DNA of 42,112 nt from Chitinophagaceae bacterium (lineage in GTDB: Bacteria; Bacteroidota; Bacteroidia; Chitinophagales; Chitinophagaceae), in NCBI GenBank assembly GCA_027486695.1, contig JAIXOS010000351.1:1-42112 (forward strand), written 5' to 3'. Below, one piece after another: positions 1 through 13,407 of the stretch (position 1 is the stretch's first letter; each line of letters opens with the position of its first letter). The position numbers were made by a program, and so were the translations under genes. A model generated the notes under the pieces. That model was not told the origin of the DNA. It searched no databases and worked only from the letters and a program-made list of their open reading frames with translations.

Positions 1-79
1 CATATACCTATAAGTATAGTCCCATAAACACACTTACTTTATTTCTGTTTTTTAATACATCAGCAAATAGCTCCAAAAT

Positions 80-232
80 GGGGTATAATACATGCCTATC
101 GGGGGGAAAATTACCATTATTGGGGTATAAAAACCAGCTATTGGGGGGAAAAGAAAGCTTGTTAGGGTATAAATATTGCCTATTGGGGAATAAAATCTGC
201 CAAACGGGGTATAAAAACAGGCTATCGGGGGG
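80..232. repeat. Eight-unit imperfect tandem array with exact 21-bp period; alternating GGGGTATAA and GGGGGGAAAA cores
   Basis: G-tracts begin at about 80, 101, 122, 143, 164, 185, 206 and 227, each 21 bp apart. Odd units read (G)GGGTATAA; even units read GGGG(GG)AA(T)A, giving a 42-bp higher-order period. Confidence 0.9.
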
Positions 233-599
233 AAAATACACATAAAACAATGCAATAACAGCCCTATAACTTGCTACTCCATTTGTTTTGCTTGGGTAAA
301 TGGTAATTTACATACGAAAACATTACTGCTGTTATTAGGAACCTTTGTATTGTTCATTACTTTGGCTTGCTGATAAGCATGATCCAATAACACAGCTGCT
401 TAATTTGTGCATGGCAAAGCCGCAGGCAAACAGGCCAAAGCGTAGTAAAGCAGGTTTATGCGCAACTGCATTTGTATAGCCTATTGGGGGTACCTCATTC
501 ATTACTGCCATCGCTTTTGTATGGTTTATAATCATAAAAGAGCCCCAAACCTTTGCAGGATGGAGCCCTTTGTTGTATTGCTAAGCCTAAAATCCACAA

Positions 600-3500
600 T
601 TATTGAACAAGCAACGAAAGCTGTTTTTGCAACAACCCACCACTCAGTACCAAGAAGTATTGTCCTTTTGGCAACCTGCCCAAGTGAGCAATTGGTATAT
701 TGCTATTGGTGGCGGCAGATGCTATTTGTACGTTTTGTTGTGCAACTAATTTGCCAAGTGTGTTAGCAATTGTTACTGTATAATTGCCGGCCGGTAACTG
801 ATGGCATTGCAAATAGGTAGCTTGATTGGTATGTGCCGGATTGGGCACCACCTGTACAGTAAAGGGCTGTGGCGTTGCTTGTACAACATTGCTATACACC
901 ACTTTGCCATTCAACAACCATGCTTTTATACGATATACTGTTTGCGCTAAGGGTTGTTCGTCGGTAAATTGAGCGGTTAAAGGCAAATTGTGCAAAACAG
1001 CATAGCTTACAAATGCACCTCCTTGCGGTTGCATGCGCTCTACTTCATATTTTACCACAGGAACGCCCGACTTTAACTGCCAATTAAGTTGAACTACGGC
1101 ATTATTGTTCACCGCTGCTTTTACGTACAACGAAGGTTCGGTATTGGCCATACGGCTACCACCACCGCCTGTAGCCAAAAGAATATTGGTGCGGCCGGCA
1201 ACATCTATATTGAACAAAATAGTGCGAGTAGTGCCATTGTTGATAACCGTTAACGACGTGTGGGCAGCATCGTTCCACTTGGTAATTGGCAGCGAATCGC
1301 CTTGATTGTAAGCAAACAACATAATTCTAAATTGGGGGCTTATACTATTGCTTTCAATTACCCACCTACCTACTCGTTTTGCCACATTAATAGAATCTAT
1401 GTACACCGGCAATCCGGCAACAGCGCCTGTATTATTTAAAACCCGTATCAAAAAGCGTCGGTTGCCGGTAGCCACCGGTTCTTGATAAATGACATCGTTG
1501 CGGTAGTTACTATCAACCAAGTTAACACTACTAGATAAAAAAGTAAGATCCTGTGCCTTTTGGGCTATCCACTTGTAGTTGTTTACAAGGCTATCCTTTT
1601 GTACATCATCGGCAATTAATACATATGGTTTGGCATCTTGCAGTAGTGCTACCGTGCGGAATACTTTTTTTACCGGATTAATGGTTTGCTTTACCAATCT
1701 ATTGTAATACGTGGTGGTATTGGGCAAATCGGTAAAAGCATACGAATTGTAAAACGGTATTTCATCAAAACTATAATAGGGCGAAAAACGGTAACTATTG
1801 GGCGTTGTCATTACTTTAGATGCGCCGGGCAAAGTAATGGCCGGATTATCGCCCTCCCAACCGCCAAACTGTCTATACCATATATCGCTATAAGCTTCTG
1901 TAGCGTCGCCTGCAATAGACAGCATATTACTATTTTTAATTACCATTGGTATTTTTCCGGGCACGGGTTGTACTGCTGCGTCCAAGCCACTAGTAGCACC
2001 TTGATTATTGATGAGGATACCCGAATTAGAACGAGTAAGCGCCGCTGAATCGTAATGACCATTAGAGTTGGTGGTGTTTCGGGCTATAAATATGCGCCCC
2101 AAAGCACTGTAAACAATGTCGTTTTTATTGGCAAATGTGTGTCCGCCTAAATCTGTTTTGTTGTGAAACCACAATGCTGCGGAGGTGGTATCAAAACCGC
2201 TACGCAAACAAGCCAATCCGCCAAGTGAATCAAAATACATTTTTTCGTTATTCAGTGCAATTTGTGCTTGTTGGGCAAAGCCAATAGGCATATAATCGCT
2301 TGCAAAAATTACGGCCGGTAAATGAAAATAAAATCCTGCCGAAAAATTGCCATTACCATTAGAATAGGAGTAATAAGTATTATTGTATGGTCGGGAGGCT
2401 TTTTGACGCTGAATATAATTTTTCCATACAAAATCTACTGCGGTATCTTTTGGATACACCCATTTTAAAGCGGGGGTTTCCATTTCGTTAAAGCGCCATC
2501 CTCCGTATGCAGGGTCTTCTGCAAAATCGGTATTGCGGCTTCCGGTACCACCCAAAAGGCCCATACCGAGAAAAGAAAAACCAAAAGGTTGGGTTATTGC
2601 GGGTAAAAACTTGGTAGCATGACTGCGCACAGATGGATGGCCCAACATGCTATAGCCTCTGCGTGCAACTATGTATAAAAGTGTGGTATTTATTTGGTCT
2701 TTACCATTCGATTCGAAAAAGCTACCCGTTTTATCGTACATACCATAGCTCAAAAAATTCCAGACATTGCGTGCCCAACGTTTAATGGCTGTATTGTAGC
2801 TAGAAGTATAGCCTGCTTCGCCTTCAATAGCCAAATTAGGAATGATTTCGTAGCCAAAAGTTAACCAATTGGTGGTGCTAGCGTACGAAATGGCTTCAAA
2901 ACCATGTAGTTCGTTACTATCGCAAGCAATTTTGGCCAAGGCCATCCTAACAGTATCTTGTTGTGTTGGTGTCATTTGCGAATGCAAAAAGTCGTAAATC
3001 AACGCAGCGTATTGTCCACCAAAATAGGCTCTATTGTTGTAATTAACATTGGTATCGGCAATTGCTTTGCGAGCCCAAATAGTCATGGCATTAGCCAATT
3101 TAGCGGCCCTTGTGGTGTACGAAGTATTGGTTACGGGGTCTACAGCACCTTTAAACAACCAGCATTCAAATGCTTCGTAAGATAGTTCAAAAGCAATTTT
3201 TAATGAATTGCCACCAAACTGATTGGCGTAATTACTGGTTACACCAATATCTCCCGCTGCTAATGAATCGTAAAAGGGCTTCACATTTGTATATCCTACA
3301 TTCGTGATAAACGGTACTCCCATCGTGTCTTTATTATACCATCCTGTTGATTTGTAGGTAGGTGCACCCCATTGAAGTAAAATGGTATGCGCATGAAAAA
3401 ACTTATAGGCGGCTTTACCACTATTGGTGTTTTGTAATCGCCACTTAATATCGGTACTGTCTTCTGGATTACAGAAAATGCGCGGGTGCGTACCTACCGG

Positions 3501-6500
3501 TGGCACATGTTTTATAAAGCGCAATCCTGTGGTATCTTGTTGCATTGGAAGCATGGCATACGGCCCAATGCCATTGGGTGCCGCAATAGTGGTATTGTCA
3601 AAATCGCTCATGTTATAAGTAAATCCCCCTTGCAAGCTATCTTTTAGTACAAATGCCGCATTGCTAGACCAAGCCGACTCTGAAGCGGTGCCCATCACTG
3701 AATCCATGTATTTGTATCTAAATTGATACGTAGTATTGGGAGCTAATGCATTGAATGTAGCTGTATAGTCGGCTTGATAACCGGCGCCGCTAGTAGCATT
3801 TTTTTCAAATACATATTTCAACTGGCCAAAAGCTACTGGTTTTATACCTCTTACAAGTGCCGTTGCATTACCGGCAAACTGAGGCAACCCTACCCAAGAG
3901 GCTTGCTTAACGCCCGGTATAGCAGCAACAGCAGCCGACTTTACACTTTCCTTTCCTGAGGCAATAACTGCCGTAACCTGATAGCTATAGGTGGAATCGT
4001 TCAATAAATTGCGATGCGCATAATAATTATTTCCATTGGCCGCCACCGAATCCAATAGCGCAAATGCACCATTATTGCGTTTTACATAAATTTTATAATA
4101 ACCAATTTGATAGTCTATTTTTTCTGAACTCCAATTGAGGTAGTTAAACTTATTTCCTGCAAATACAGCCGTTATAGTAGGTGCCGGATTGATGGTAATA
4201 TTGGGTGCTATAAAAGTAGCCCCGTTGTTAATATTACCACTAACAGCCGTATTTTTTTTGCCATAAACCAATGTATAATAACCCGTAGCGGTATTAATGG
4301 CGTCTACAGTAAAAATAAATTGTGTACTGCCATTATTTACCAGCTGTTTACTTGTTGCCGGTATTACGTAGTTAGTGCCGGTTGCAAAAGTGGGGTCAGT
4401 AGCATTGTATAGCAAATGATAATCGAACAAAGTAGTGTCTGCATTAGCCGCTAATCCGTAATTGGTAAAATTAAATTTTAGTTTATACAACCCTCCATAA
4501 CCGCCACATGCATCGTTTTTTTGGATAAACCAAACCCGGTTCCAGCGTGCGAAGCCATTGCCTATTTGTTGTATACCCGATAGTAAATTGTCGCCTAGTA
4601 GTATATAATCACCCGGTTCTTTTAAAAATCCATCTACCGTGTTCACATTTTCTATACCCAATCCGTTGTCGGAAACTGATGCCGTAACCGAATCGGTTCC
4701 TCTTTCCCTACCAATACCCACAATGTTGTTATAAAAGGCCGCATTAACAGGTAAATAATTGTTCACCGTATTGGTAGATAAATTATTTTGAATACCCCAT
4801 TTATATGCCAAATAGGTTTCTACTATTTTTTTAGCCGGTGTTTTCAAGGCAATATTGGTCAATACGGTTTCGCTAATACCCCATTTTACATTTACAAAAT
4901 AGCTATAAGGTGCACTATTGGTATTGCCTCTATTGCCTAAAGCAATAGGATTGTTGGTAAGTTTTTTGGTTAACATGGTATAATCTGCTTCGTAAGCGCC
5001 GTTTAATAGACCCACATAGTTAGCCAAGCCGCCGGTAGCTGCATAGGTTTCCATTAACGACACTTTACCTCTTACGTCGGGCACCGCGGCATCGCCTCCA
5101 CCTACATAGGACCATACCGAATTGGCCGGTACGCGCAAACGAAAACGCTTATCGGTAGTATTATAATTGATACTAATTCCCGGTGCATCGGAATTACGGC
5201 AAAAAGTACCGTACCTAAAATCGGTAATAGTAGTGGACAAACCGGTATCTACTTGTACAATTTGTGCCAAATGATACCCGGTTGCCGAATCGAAGATAGC
5301 CGGCGCGGGATTTAGTACCAATCCTTTTACCCCATTAAAATACACCATTTTTTTACCATTAATGGTTGAGTCGGCAGGGTTGTGCGTGGCTAGCGGGGCT
5401 TTAAATGCAAAACCATTTATTTTATCAACCCATTTAAACAATCCTCCTTCATAACCTATTGTTGAAGCATCCGATGCATCTAACCAAATATTAAAATTGG
5501 TTTTATCTAAACCTCCCGGAAAGTAGGCAAAAGTTGGCTGCATAAAACCAGGTAATAAATTCAGGTTGGTATTTTTGGGCGCCCACACCACGGTATAAAA
5601 GCCACTCATAAAATTAGCAGATGGCAATTCAACAGACCATTTATTGGCATTAAATACCGCATTGATAGTAGGTACTATCCAATTGTTACCGGTTGAAAAA
5701 CTTCCTGATTTATCGTTAAAAAGTAAATAATAATTGAATGTTGCTGTATCGTCAACTACTCCATATTGATTAAAGTCAAAATTCATTGCTATGTTACCAC
5801 CATTAACCATTGCATCGGTACGTTGCACATACCAAGCTCTTGCCCATCTGTTAAAATTGGCATCTATTGCCACAGTTCCCGAGGCTTTGTTATCGGCAGC
5901 AATTACGTAATCACCGGTATTTTTTAAAAAAGATACATTGCTTAATTGAAGTCCATTTCCGGATGCAGTAGCATTAATGGAGTCGGTACTACTTTCGTAA
6001 CCTATACCAATTAAATTATTTGAAAAAATACTATCTACAGGCTGGTAAAGGGTTTGTAATGCAGCGGGTATGAGGGTTTTTGTAGTCCATTTATTGGCTA
6101 AATACAATTCCAGCAATTTTCTTCCGGTGATGCCTAAGCTACTACTCGATAAAACGGTTTCGCTAATTGCCCAATGCACGTTTACGGCATAATTGGTGGG
6201 CAAAGCGGCACTATTACCTCTGTTACCAATAAAAACGGGAACACCCGAAAGTTTTACTGATGACATGCTATAGGTATTGTACTGCACACCATTTAATAAA
6301 CCAAAATGATTGGTTGTGCCGCCACTATTTGCAAAACTCTCCAACAACGCCCAATTATTGCGTAAGTCTACAGCACCACTATTGCCATTACCAATATAGG
6401 CCGAGGTATTATTTCCCGGTATTCTACCTCTAAAACGTGCGTCATTGGTTATGTAATTTACCGACATTCCCGGTACACCGGAACTATTGCGGGAATAAGT

Positions 6501-6905
6501 GCCAATACGAAAGTCTTTTACAGAAGTATCTATATTATTATACAAATATACCACTTGTGCTAAGTGATAAGCTCCGGCTGAATCAAAAACTGTTGGCGAT
6601 GGCTGTGTACTTATAAATAATTGTTTTACTCCATTAAATTCAACGGTTTTTTTTCCATTTACGGTGGTATAAGTAGGATTAAAACTACTGCTAAACGAAC
6701 GTGCCTGCCAACCACTAATTTTATCGTTCCATCTAAATAAAGAGTCTATTACAATTTGTGTACTATCGGCAGCATCTAACCACAAATGAAATTTTTGTTT
6801 GGCCATCCCGGCAGGATAATACGTTTGCGCCACTGTACTTGTAACACACAAGGAGGAGGATAAAATAGCGGCAAACGAAAGCATTTTTTTGTAAAAAATA
6901 CCCAT
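600..6905 (-). CDS. Giant secreted multidomain protein: two N-terminal LamG/ConA-like repeats, Fn3-like region, heparinase II/III-like (alginate-lyase-like) region, T9SS-type C-terminal sorting domain
   Basis: 2101-aa ORF with a hydrophobic signal peptide (MGIFYKKMLSFAAILSSSLCVTSTVAQ). WLDAxD...W.DK..G modules occur twice. GGHTFANKNDIVYSALGRIFIAR resembles the heparinase II/III core. The C-terminus VVPNPAHTN...GKLVAQQNVQ...LPKGQYFLVLSGG...QLSLLVQ is typical of a T9SS type A sorting domain. Confidence 0.8.
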   Translation of the reverse strand: MGIFYKKMLSFAAILSSSLCVTSTVAQTYYPAGMAKQKFHLWLDAADSTQIVIDSLFRWNDKISGWQARSFSSSFNPTYTTVNGKKTVEFNGVKQLFISTQPSPTVFDSAGAYHLAQVVYLYNNIDTSVKDFRIGTYSRNSSGVPGMSVNYITNDARFRGRIPGNNTSAYIGNGNSGAVDLRNNWALLESFANSGGTTNHFGLLNGVQYNTYSMSSVKLSGVPVFIGNRGNSAALPTNYAVNVHWAISETVLSSSSLGITGRKLLELYLANKWTTKTLIPAALQTLYQPVDSIFSNNLIGIGYESSTDSINATASGNGLQLSNVSFLKNTGDYVIAADNKASGTVAIDANFNRWARAWYVQRTDAMVNGGNIAMNFDFNQYGVVDDTATFNYYLLFNDKSGSFSTGNNWIVPTINAVFNANKWSVELPSANFMSGFYTVVWAPKNTNLNLLPGFMQPTFAYFPGGLDKTNFNIWLDASDASTIGYEGGLFKWVDKINGFAFKAPLATHNPADSTINGKKMVYFNGVKGLVLNPAPAIFDSATGYHLAQIVQVDTGLSTTITDFRYGTFCRNSDAPGISINYNTTDKRFRLRVPANSVWSYVGGGDAAVPDVRGKVSLMETYAATGGLANYVGLLNGAYEADYTMLTKKLTNNPIALGNRGNTNSAPYSYFVNVKWGISETVLTNIALKTPAKKIVETYLAYKWGIQNNLSTNTVNNYLPVNAAFYNNIVGIGRERGTDSVTASVSDNGLGIENVNTVDGFLKEPGDYILLGDNLLSGIQQIGNGFARWNRVWFIQKNDACGGYGGLYKLKFNFTNYGLAANADTTLFDYHLLYNATDPTFATGTNYVIPATSKQLVNNGSTQFIFTVDAINTATGYYTLVYGKKNTAVSGNINNGATFIAPNITINPAPTITAVFAGNKFNYLNWSSEKIDYQIGYYKIYVKRNNGAFALLDSVAANGNNYYAHRNLLNDSTYSYQVTAVIASGKESVKSAAVAAIPGVKQASWVGLPQFAGNATALVRGIKPVAFGQLKYVFEKNATSGAGYQADYTATFNALAPNTTYQFRYKYMDSVMGTASESAWSSNAAFVLKDSLQGGFTYNMSDFDNTTIAAPNGIGPYAMLPMQQDTTGLRFIKHVPPVGTHPRIFCNPEDSTDIKWRLQNTNSGKAAYKFFHAHTILLQWGAPTYKSTGWYNKDTMGVPFITNVGYTNVKPFYDSLAAGDIGVTSNYANQFGGNSLKIAFELSYEAFECWLFKGAVDPVTNTSYTTRAAKLANAMTIWARKAIADTNVNYNNRAYFGGQYAALIYDFLHSQMTPTQQDTVRMALAKIACDSNELHGFEAISYASTTNWLTFGYEIIPNLAIEGEAGYTSSYNTAIKRWARNVWNFLSYGMYDKTGSFFESNGKDQINTTLLYIVARRGYSMLGHPSVRSHATKFLPAITQPFGFSFLGMGLLGGTGSRNTDFAEDPAYGGWRFNEMETPALKWVYPKDTAVDFVWKNYIQRQKASRPYNNTYYSYSNGNGNFSAGFYFHLPAVIFASDYMPIGFAQQAQIALNNEKMYFDSLGGLACLRSGFDTTSAALWFHNKTDLGGHTFANKNDIVYSALGRIFIARNTTNSNGHYDSAALTRSNSGILINNQGATSGLDAAVQPVPGKIPMVIKNSNMLSIAGDATEAYSDIWYRQFGGWEGDNPAITLPGASKVMTTPNSYRFSPYYSFDEIPFYNSYAFTDLPNTTTYYNRLVKQTINPVKKVFRTVALLQDAKPYVLIADDVQKDSLVNNYKWIAQKAQDLTFLSSSVNLVDSNYRNDVIYQEPVATGNRRFLIRVLNNTGAVAGLPVYIDSINVAKRVGRWVIESNSISPQFRIMLFAYNQGDSLPITKWNDAAHTSLTVINNGTTRTILFNIDVAGRTNILLATGGGGSRMANTEPSLYVKAAVNNNAVVQLNWQLKSGVPVVKYEVERMQPQGGAFVSYAVLHNLPLTAQFTDEQPLAQTVYRIKAWLLNGKVVYSNVVQATPQPFTVQVVPNPAHTNQATYLQCHQLPAGNYTVTIANTLGKLVAQQNVQIASAATNSNIPIAHLGRLPKGQYFLVLSGGLLQKQLSLLVQ

Positions 6906-11443: not shown

Positions 11444-11451
11444 TACATTTG
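11444..11451 (+). promoter_or_regulatory. Bacteroidota-type -7 element TACATTTG upstream of carB half gene
   Basis: Matches TAnnTTTG, 21 nt upstream of the ATG at 11473. No clear -33 TTTG. Confidence 0.45.
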
Positions 11452-11472
11452 CACAATTTTATTTTTTATACT

Positions 11473-13119
11473 ATGCCAAAAGACAACTCTATTAAGTCGG
11501 TACTCATTATTGGTTCTGGCCCAATTATCATTGGTCAGGCCTGCGAATTTGATTATTCCGGTTCACAAGCGGCCCGCAGTTTACGCGAAGAAGGTATTGA
11601 AGTAATACTGATCAATAGCAATCCTGCTACCATTATGACCGATCCTATGATGGCCGACAAAGTGTATTTATTGCCATTAACGGTAGAAAGTATTGAGCAA
11701 ATTTTGCAAGAAAACAATATCGATGCCGTGCTACCTACTATGGGTGGTCAAACTGCTTTAAATCTTTGTAAGGAAGCCGACGAACTAGGTATTTGGGAAA
11801 AATACAATTGTAGAATGATTGGTGTAGATGTGGCCGCAATTGATACCGCCGAAGACCGTGAACAATTTCGCCAACTCATGGTCAAAATTGGTATTGCAGT
11901 AGCCCCTAGCCATGTAGCCAATAGCTTTTTGGAAGGAAAAGAATATGCCCAACAAATTGGCTTTCCACTAGTTATCCGATCTTCCTTTACCCTAGGTGGT
12001 AGCGGTGGCGGATTTGTACACGATAAAAGTGAACTTGACGAAGCCTTAAAACGGGGTCTTGAAGCCTCTCCTATACACGAAGTATTGGTAGAAAAAGCGG
12101 TATTGGGCTGGAAAGAATACGAATTGGAATTGCTACGCGATATAAACGATAACGTAGTCATTATTTGTACCGTAGAAAACCTAGACCCTATGGGCGTACA
12201 TACCGGCGATAGCATAACCGTAGCACCGGCTATGACACTAAGCGATACGGCCTTTCAAAATATGCGTAACCAAGCCATTTTAATGATGCGTAGCCTAGGC
12301 AACTTTGCCGGCGGTTGCAATGTTCAATTTGCACTTAATCCAGCTACCGAAGAACTCATTGCTGTAGAAATCAATCCGCGTGTGAGTCGTTCATCGGCAT
12401 TGGCAAGTAAAGCTACCGGCTACCCAATTGCCAAAATTGCTGCCAAACTTGCTATCGGATACTCGCTCGACGAACTCAAAAACCAAATTACCAAAACCAC
12501 TTCAGCCTATTTTGAACCGGCACTCGATTATGTAATTGTAAAAGTGCCCCGTTGGAATTTTGATAAGTTCAAAGGTGCTAACGATACCCTTGGCTTGCAA
12601 ATGAAAAGCGTTGGCGAAGTAATGGCTATTGGCCGAAGCTTTACCGAAGCTCTACAAAAAGCATGTCAAAGTTTGGAAAACGATGCACTTGGCTTAGGCT
12701 ACTATGGTAAAAGCTTAATGAAAGGCGAGCACATTTTGGAATACATCAAAACACCCAAATGGGATCGTATTTTCCGTATCAAAGATGCATTGATGCAGGG
12801 CATTACCGTAAAATCAATTGCCCAAGCCACAGGTATTGATCGATGGTTTTTGTACCAAATACAAAAAATTTGTACCATCGAAAAAGAAATTGCCCACTAT
12901 CATTTGGAAACCTTACCGGTTGATTTGTTGAAAGAAGCCAAAAGGAATGGCTTTGGCGACGAGCAAATTTCTAAAATATTGCAAGGAAATTGTACCGAAG
13001 ATATGGTGTACGAACACCGAAAAGCTTTGGGCATACAACGTGTTTACAAAATGGTAGATACTTGTAGTGCTGAGTTTGAGGCCAAAACCCCCTACTTCTA
13101 CAGTTCTTTCGAAAACTAA
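11473..13119 (+). CDS. carB: Carbamoyl-phosphate synthase large subunit, N-terminal half only (carboxyphosphate + oligomerisation domains)
   Basis: KSVLIIGSGPIIIGQACEFDYSGSQAARSLREEGIEVILINSNPATIMTDP through ...VYKMVDTCSAEFEAKTPYFYSSFEN-stop. It ends at the junction that links the two CarB halves. The ORF-track start at 11449 (TTG) overlaps the -7 element, so ATG 11473 is preferred. Confidence 0.92.
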   Translation: MPKDNSIKSVLIIGSGPIIIGQACEFDYSGSQAARSLREEGIEVILINSNPATIMTDPMMADKVYLLPLTVESIEQILQENNIDAVLPTMGGQTALNLCKEADELGIWEKYNCRMIGVDVAAIDTAEDREQFRQLMVKIGIAVAPSHVANSFLEGKEYAQQIGFPLVIRSSFTLGGSGGGFVHDKSELDEALKRGLEASPIHEVLVEKAVLGWKEYELELLRDINDNVVIICTVENLDPMGVHTGDSITVAPAMTLSDTAFQNMRNQAILMMRSLGNFAGGCNVQFALNPATEELIAVEINPRVSRSSALASKATGYPIAKIAAKLAIGYSLDELKNQITKTTSAYFEPALDYVIVKVPRWNFDKFKGANDTLGLQMKSVGEVMAIGRSFTEALQKACQSLENDALGLGYYGKSLMKGEHILEYIKTPKWDRIFRIKDALMQGITVKSIAQATGIDRWFLYQIQKICTIEKEIAHYHLETLPVDLLKEAKRNGFGDEQISKILQGNCTEDMVYEHRKALGIQRVYKMVDTCSAEFEAKTPYFYSSFEN

Positions 13120-13179: not shown

Positions 13180-13389
13180 ATTCCCTCGCTACATTTTACA
13201 AACCAAACGGCTACCGTGTAGCCTCATTTAGGGTATGAGCCAAGCGCACGTTACACCAATGTAGCAGCAGTGGCGTTGGCACCATTCAACTGTATCCATT
13301 CTTGTCAGCTTATCCCAAATAGGGTTTTAACTTGCAAAAAATGCATTTTATATTGTTTTTTCTGAAAAAATAGTATATTTATACTTGTT

Positions 13390-13407
13390 TTTCTAAAAAT
13401 TTAGAAA
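13390..13407. promoter_or_regulatory. Perfect 8-2-8 palindrome upstream of guanine deaminase, candidate Lrp/AsnC operator
   Basis: TTTCTAAA-AA-TTTAGAAA, about 95 bp upstream of ATG 13501. Confidence 0.5.

Follow-up and report, generated by a model that had tools for sequence, protein, structure and literature searches.

Tandem arrays with an exact 21-bp step between genes of Chitinophagaceae suggest a common, possibly protein-bound noncoding element

What is encoded, bound or simply copied in a short run of G-rich boxes spaced by exactly 21 bp, i.e. two helical turns, at the edge of a Chitinophagaceae contig? The window, which is the whole stretch of 42,112 nucleotides that was analysed, is one complete contig (C233, 1-42112) of a MAG of 502 contigs, and the array lies at its left end (table 1). 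The eight G boxes start at 80, 101, 122, 143, 164, 185, 206 and 227, confirming the spacing given in a preliminary description of this DNA. The 42-bp alternation of box types claimed there is real but imperfect, since the box at 185 (GGGGAATAAA) departs from the pattern (box order TATAA/GGAAAA/TATAA/GGAAAA/TATAA/AATAAA/TATAA/GGAAAA). Units 1-7 all keep GGG and the AA at phases 6-7, and much of the remaining unit varies.

The periodicity is far above chance. Over the best 126 bp the 21-lag identity was 0.603, compared with 0.334 ± 0.030 (maximum 0.405) in 300 dinucleotide-preserving shuffles (segment swaps) of positions 1-600. When lags of 10-60 were scanned along the whole window, only 42, at the same place, reached 0.5 over 126 bp besides 21, and TRF also detected both periods. 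A further similar motif, described near 478-489, was recovered as GCCTATTGGGGG at about 479-490. The distance from the box at 227 to the start of the G run in this motif (486) is 259 bp, which is no multiple of 21.

Table 1. Coordinates of the array, its boxes and other repeat features (positions in the window unless a locus is named).
Feature	Position	Strand	Remarks
Array, eight 21-bp units	80..247	.	about 350 bp past the 3' end of gene 600-6905
Box 1, GGGGTATAA type	80..88	+	
Box 2, GGGGGGAAAA type	101..110	+	
Box 3, GGGGTATAA type	122..130	+	
Box 4, GGGGGGAAAA type	143..152	+	
Box 5, TAGGGTATAA	163..172	+	register start 164; A replaces the first G (AGGG, not GGGG)
Box 6, GGGGAATAAA	185..194	+	alternation broken here
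Box 7, GGGGTATAA type	206..214	+	
Box 8, GGGGGGAAAA type	227..236	+	
Isolated GCCTATTGGGGG	479..490	+	out of 21-bp phase
Incidental open frame named in the preliminary description	8..250	-	no coding signal
Incidental open frame	78..245	+	ATG at 78, 55 aa, heptads such as GYKNQLL/GGKESLL; no coding signal
Heptanucleotide repeats in relatives	L087:1470-1550, L254:6958-7055, L266:12563-12722, L275:819-997		
Duplicated array with short flanks in one genome (G048)	L121:19108-19427 and L129:169-488		

One reading offered for the locus was a small gene for a heptad-repeat peptide. The two minus-strand frames reported as open do run across the array (ORF 8-250, 80 aa with a TTG start, and 52-255), and with one plus-strand frame, from the ATG at 78 to a stop at 245, three of the six frames are open, which is what speaks for such a gene. 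Against it, differences between the window units are spread evenly over the codon positions (0.41/0.36/0.39), the substitutions among three orthologous arrays of relatives show as little bias (30/30/32), and none of the frames stays open across all three of these species. Neither a codon-position bias nor a shared frame was found, and a peptide gene is regarded as highly improbable.

Searches of related genomes for the unit, as proposed in the preliminary description, returned nothing for its sequence, but the 21-bp architecture proved to be common in same-genus relatives. The 42-bp composite pattern of the window had no match beyond its own array across 399 family genomes, and window DNA searched against 12 other same-genus genomes gave no ortholog of the array. 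A 21-lag scan without sequence bias detected 17 arrays in 240 kb of relative G048, 13 in 199 kb of G319 and 4 in 144 kb of G138; the genome of the window itself, sampled over 301 kb, had none. All of these densities refer to contig samples and not to complete genomes, the contigs being picked by number and, for G319 and G138, partly for homologs of the window's large gene. Array calling used our own 21-lag identity threshold, which admits a few weak regions. Extrapolation from G048 gives, as an upper figure, a few hundred arrays per genome.

The relatives with arrays are freshwater bacteria, and the arrays lie in gaps between genes. Each array there has its own unit, so that the period is common and the sequence is not; G-tracts at 21-bp spacing recur among the relatives with other sequences. 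The locus had been predicted to be a mere decaying minisatellite if relatives lacked phase-conserved boxes. For the class as a whole such boxes are present, but no other locus had the unit itself. What places the window array in this class is its period, position and box/linker pattern; homology plays no part.

The preference for 21 bp is close to exclusive. In the period spectrum of G048 from 9 to 65, 17 arrays fell at 21 (seen also at 42 and 63) and nearly all other periods had 0-3, the exception being 14, with 6 arrays; in G319 there were 13 at 21, mostly 0-3 elsewhere, and 6 at 60. An independent scan of G048 for G-tracts at free spacing likewise placed nearly all tandem matches at 21. Periods 14 and 28 in the relatives come from 7-bp repeats, and heptanucleotide repeats such as AACTAAT (periods 7, 14 and 28) were observed in the same relatives, 21 being 3 x 7.

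Among 77 arrays, a set that depends on ORF-based gene calls and was partly selected by GGGG, only one lay within an ORF of 100 aa or more, the median array length was 207 bp, and the orientation of flanking genes resembled that at all long gaps. The neighbours were diverse and many were housekeeping genes (thymidylate synthase, SecA, chorismate synthase etc.); no recurrent neighbour gene family was found beside the arrays beyond orthologs and small groups. Several arrays in the relatives lie near contig ends, as would be expected if repeats break assemblies.

Dispersed intergenic repeats raise the question of a mobile element with internal 21-bp repeats, either REP/BIME-like or copied by another enzyme. 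In one genome an array together with its flanks occurs twice (L121 and L129, about 92% identity over 320 bp) in otherwise unrelated surroundings, and several arrays built on GGGG-N4-CCCC end in a similar AGTCTTT sequence, both of which fit such an element. However, units differ between most arrays, and the diverse, often housekeeping, flanking genes include no recurrent cargo. The array-rich genomes G048, G368 and G389 have only 1-3 genes with a Y1-transposase domain each, and in 20 neighbourhoods of Y1-domain genes, judged by eye, arrays occurred at about background density. REP/BIME sequences with their RAYT (Y1) transposases are likewise extragenic, often have palindromic units and can cluster, but the arrays show no consensus across loci (the window unit being unique in the 399 genomes), no covariation within the palindrome and, again by eye, no link to a RAYT-like gene. 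A mobile element is therefore considered unlikely.

The orthologous arrays of relatives give a view of how such loci evolve. In the set L065/L076/L089 the array is 66-74% identical and the flanking genes about 85%, and alignment of L065 with its orthologs has zero or one gapped base within the array, a 78-base gap of one pair lying at the array end. Out of about nine units, 1-2 show variation at phases 0-3 and 0-1 at phases 15-16, against 3-9 at the remaining phases (7-9 at several linker phases); the near-invariant phases correspond to CCCC and GG, and the compared block takes in some 30 bp past the array. Conserved boxes with fast linkers are indicated by this one informative set of three orthologs, although gene conversion among units that are alike might give the same picture. 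In a second set, L064/L073/L074, the arrays are gap-free and 90-94% identical, above the flanking genes (76-88%), and contain too few changes to show box constraint. Elsewhere orthologous arrays differ by exactly 8 units (168 bp, 8 x 21) or, in another comparison, by five (5 x 21), and the unit type has changed between related species at L091/L097 and L082/L090.

These features bring the arrays close to bacterial intergenic minisatellites or VNTRs, with which they share noncoding tandem units, copy changes by whole units (number variation being seen in the relatives) and locus-specific sequence. They differ from them in that a single 21-bp period runs through many unrelated arrays per genome, and in that boxes are conserved between species in the tested set. 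A purely mutational origin, in which slippage or repair makes tandem duplications in steps of two helical turns and leaves functionless minisatellites, would account for locus-specific units, the 42- and 63-bp cycles, whole-unit differences and concerted divergence through repeat turnover, and also for the presence of arrays in relatives and their near absence from the sample of the window's own genome. Lower variation of boxes than of linkers between three species is not expected from copying alone, nor does copying alone give units with dyad symmetry above that of random intergenic units, and no process that steps by a fixed 21 bp is known to us. A mutational origin is nevertheless the main rival, at a fair but less than even probability.

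The symmetry was measured on consensus units of 22 arrays collected without sequence bias, of which L121 and L129, being copies of one array, are not independent. Mean dyad symmetry was 0.677, whereas random intergenic 21-mers gave 0.542 (p=8e-7); taken singly, 2 of the 22 passed 0.01 in that comparison, and 13 of 22 passed against column permutation. The unit of the window lacks such symmetry, hence the argument cannot be carried over to the window array. A purine/pyrimidine alternation over half a turn was strong against permuted columns. When random intergenic 21-mers served as the control it did not stand out (p=0.10), and it was discarded.

Dyad symmetry in many units of relatives, together with the helical phasing, could also point to an array of hairpins (RNA or cruciform) or to a DNA-curvature element. 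At the dyad positions in relatives, though, there was no covariation (981 observed against 1009.5 expected), and changes in the G boxes were uncompensated (GCGG-N4-CCCC or its mirror is common, GCGG-N4-CCGC never occurs), which argues against hairpins and fits recognition of the double strand. Orientation of the arrays relative to genes is mixed, and an Rfam search of the window gave no match. Bending, another of the readings first offered, did not hold up either: calculated with wedge parameters, the predicted curvature of 22 arrays was not above that of column-permuted controls (mean z -0.23), and for the window array it was 0.97 against 0.72 ± 0.36. Curvature and hairpins are accordingly given very little probability, and of the readings in the preliminary description it is the phased protein-binding array that is left standing.

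For that reading, relatives carry many arrays with this period, and one ortholog set keeps its boxes as the linkers vary; the docking itself we infer. A DNA-binding protein would dock at each 21-bp unit, and where units are two-fold symmetric it would be a dimer or a cooperative oligomer. Two helical turns per unit would put the sites on one face, allowing bound molecules to touch. Unequal exchange of in-phase units would homogenise each array and drive its divergence from the others, selection would remove off-phase indels, and in its species, otherwise free of arrays, the window array would stand alone or nearly so. Since units differ between arrays, it is hard to see how a single sequence-specific protein would recognise them all. 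Judged from sequence comparison, docking appears to be the best single mechanism, with the mutational origin close behind. That the window holds a noncoding tandem array, of a class spread through the genus, whose common and exact 21-bp step serves docking of a putative protein, is the interpretation we favour, with slightly less than even confidence.

Known protein-bound arrays offer partial parallels. Regulators of the LytTR type bind direct repeats spaced by about 21 bp, and the arrays share with these targets the spacing and the proportions of a box of about 8-10 bp with a linker of 11-13 bp. LytTR sites usually consist of two boxes, however, and the arrays of about ten. The regulators are also far fewer than the arrays: genomes of the genus have 3-12 LytTR genes (5 in G048 and 4 in G368) and many arrays with different units, and the window's genome has 6 such genes and one known array. 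Assignment to LytTR sites is thus very doubtful. Plasmid iterons of about 19-22 bp are likewise phased direct repeats on one helical face, but the arrays are many per genome and each has another sequence. CRISPR arrays share a periodic conserved box with a variable part between, but their repeats are about 23-47 bp, with unique spacers and cas genes, and the conserved core here is 4-10 bp in a unit of 21 bp.

Beyond the family, the dyad GGGG-N4-CCCC at 21 bp was matched on 60 contigs of a species-genome collection, many from Bacteroidales, Planctomycetaceae, Spirochaetaceae and Verrucomicrobia besides Chitinophagaceae; many of the hits are presumably termite-gut MAGs, going by their isolate codes. 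Such arrays were recorded at L153-L212 in MAGs of these four non-Chitinophagaceae groups, with seven contigs of the Odoribacteraceae MAG JAIROI01 carrying them. Matches within long ORFs (e.g. L154, L155 and L179) are probably coding repeats, and others are intergenic (e.g. L168 and L187). The spread over phyla comes from a pattern-biased scan and is a lead. A pattern of four GGGG across the phylum mostly picked up repeats that were of low complexity or unrelated, and was left out of any estimate of distribution. Among viral contigs there was one match to the dyad pattern (IMGVR_UViG_3300021961_009540, L293:5313-5358) and none to the window pattern.

Literal matching in the open-access literature found no published description of such arrays, and the data suggest that 21-bp arrays are a common, seemingly undescribed noncoding element, possibly protein-bound. 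We tentatively propose, at well under even confidence, a new noncoding class of phase-locked arrays of exactly 21 bp, which differ in sequence from one another, would reach a few hundred in a genome if our extrapolation holds, and would dock a putative protein that reads symmetry or spacing; the class would belong to Chitinophagaceae and perhaps to termite-gut Bacteroidales, Planctomycetaceae and Spirochaetaceae and to Verrucomicrobia. Intergenic repeats in bacteria are usually seen as mobile copies of one sequence or as minisatellites of any period. Arrays that are alike only in a period locked to two helical turns match neither category, and raise the question of what reads spacing without a fixed sequence, which the lineages and loci named here make testable.

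Elsewhere in the window, a 556-aa ORF (11449-13119), judged by its translation, is similar to the large chain of carbamoyl-phosphate synthase over the N-terminal half of that chain only, and may be a truncated or split gene. Behind it comes a short tandem repeat (about 31 bp; 13336-13399). From 14153 to 37968, ORF translations point to a long gene run resembling purine/pyrimidine (ureide) catabolism, with xanthine dehydrogenase subunits, amidohydrolases of the allantoinase/dihydropyrimidinase type, an OHCU-decarboxylase-like protein, M20-type amidohydrolases and a permease.
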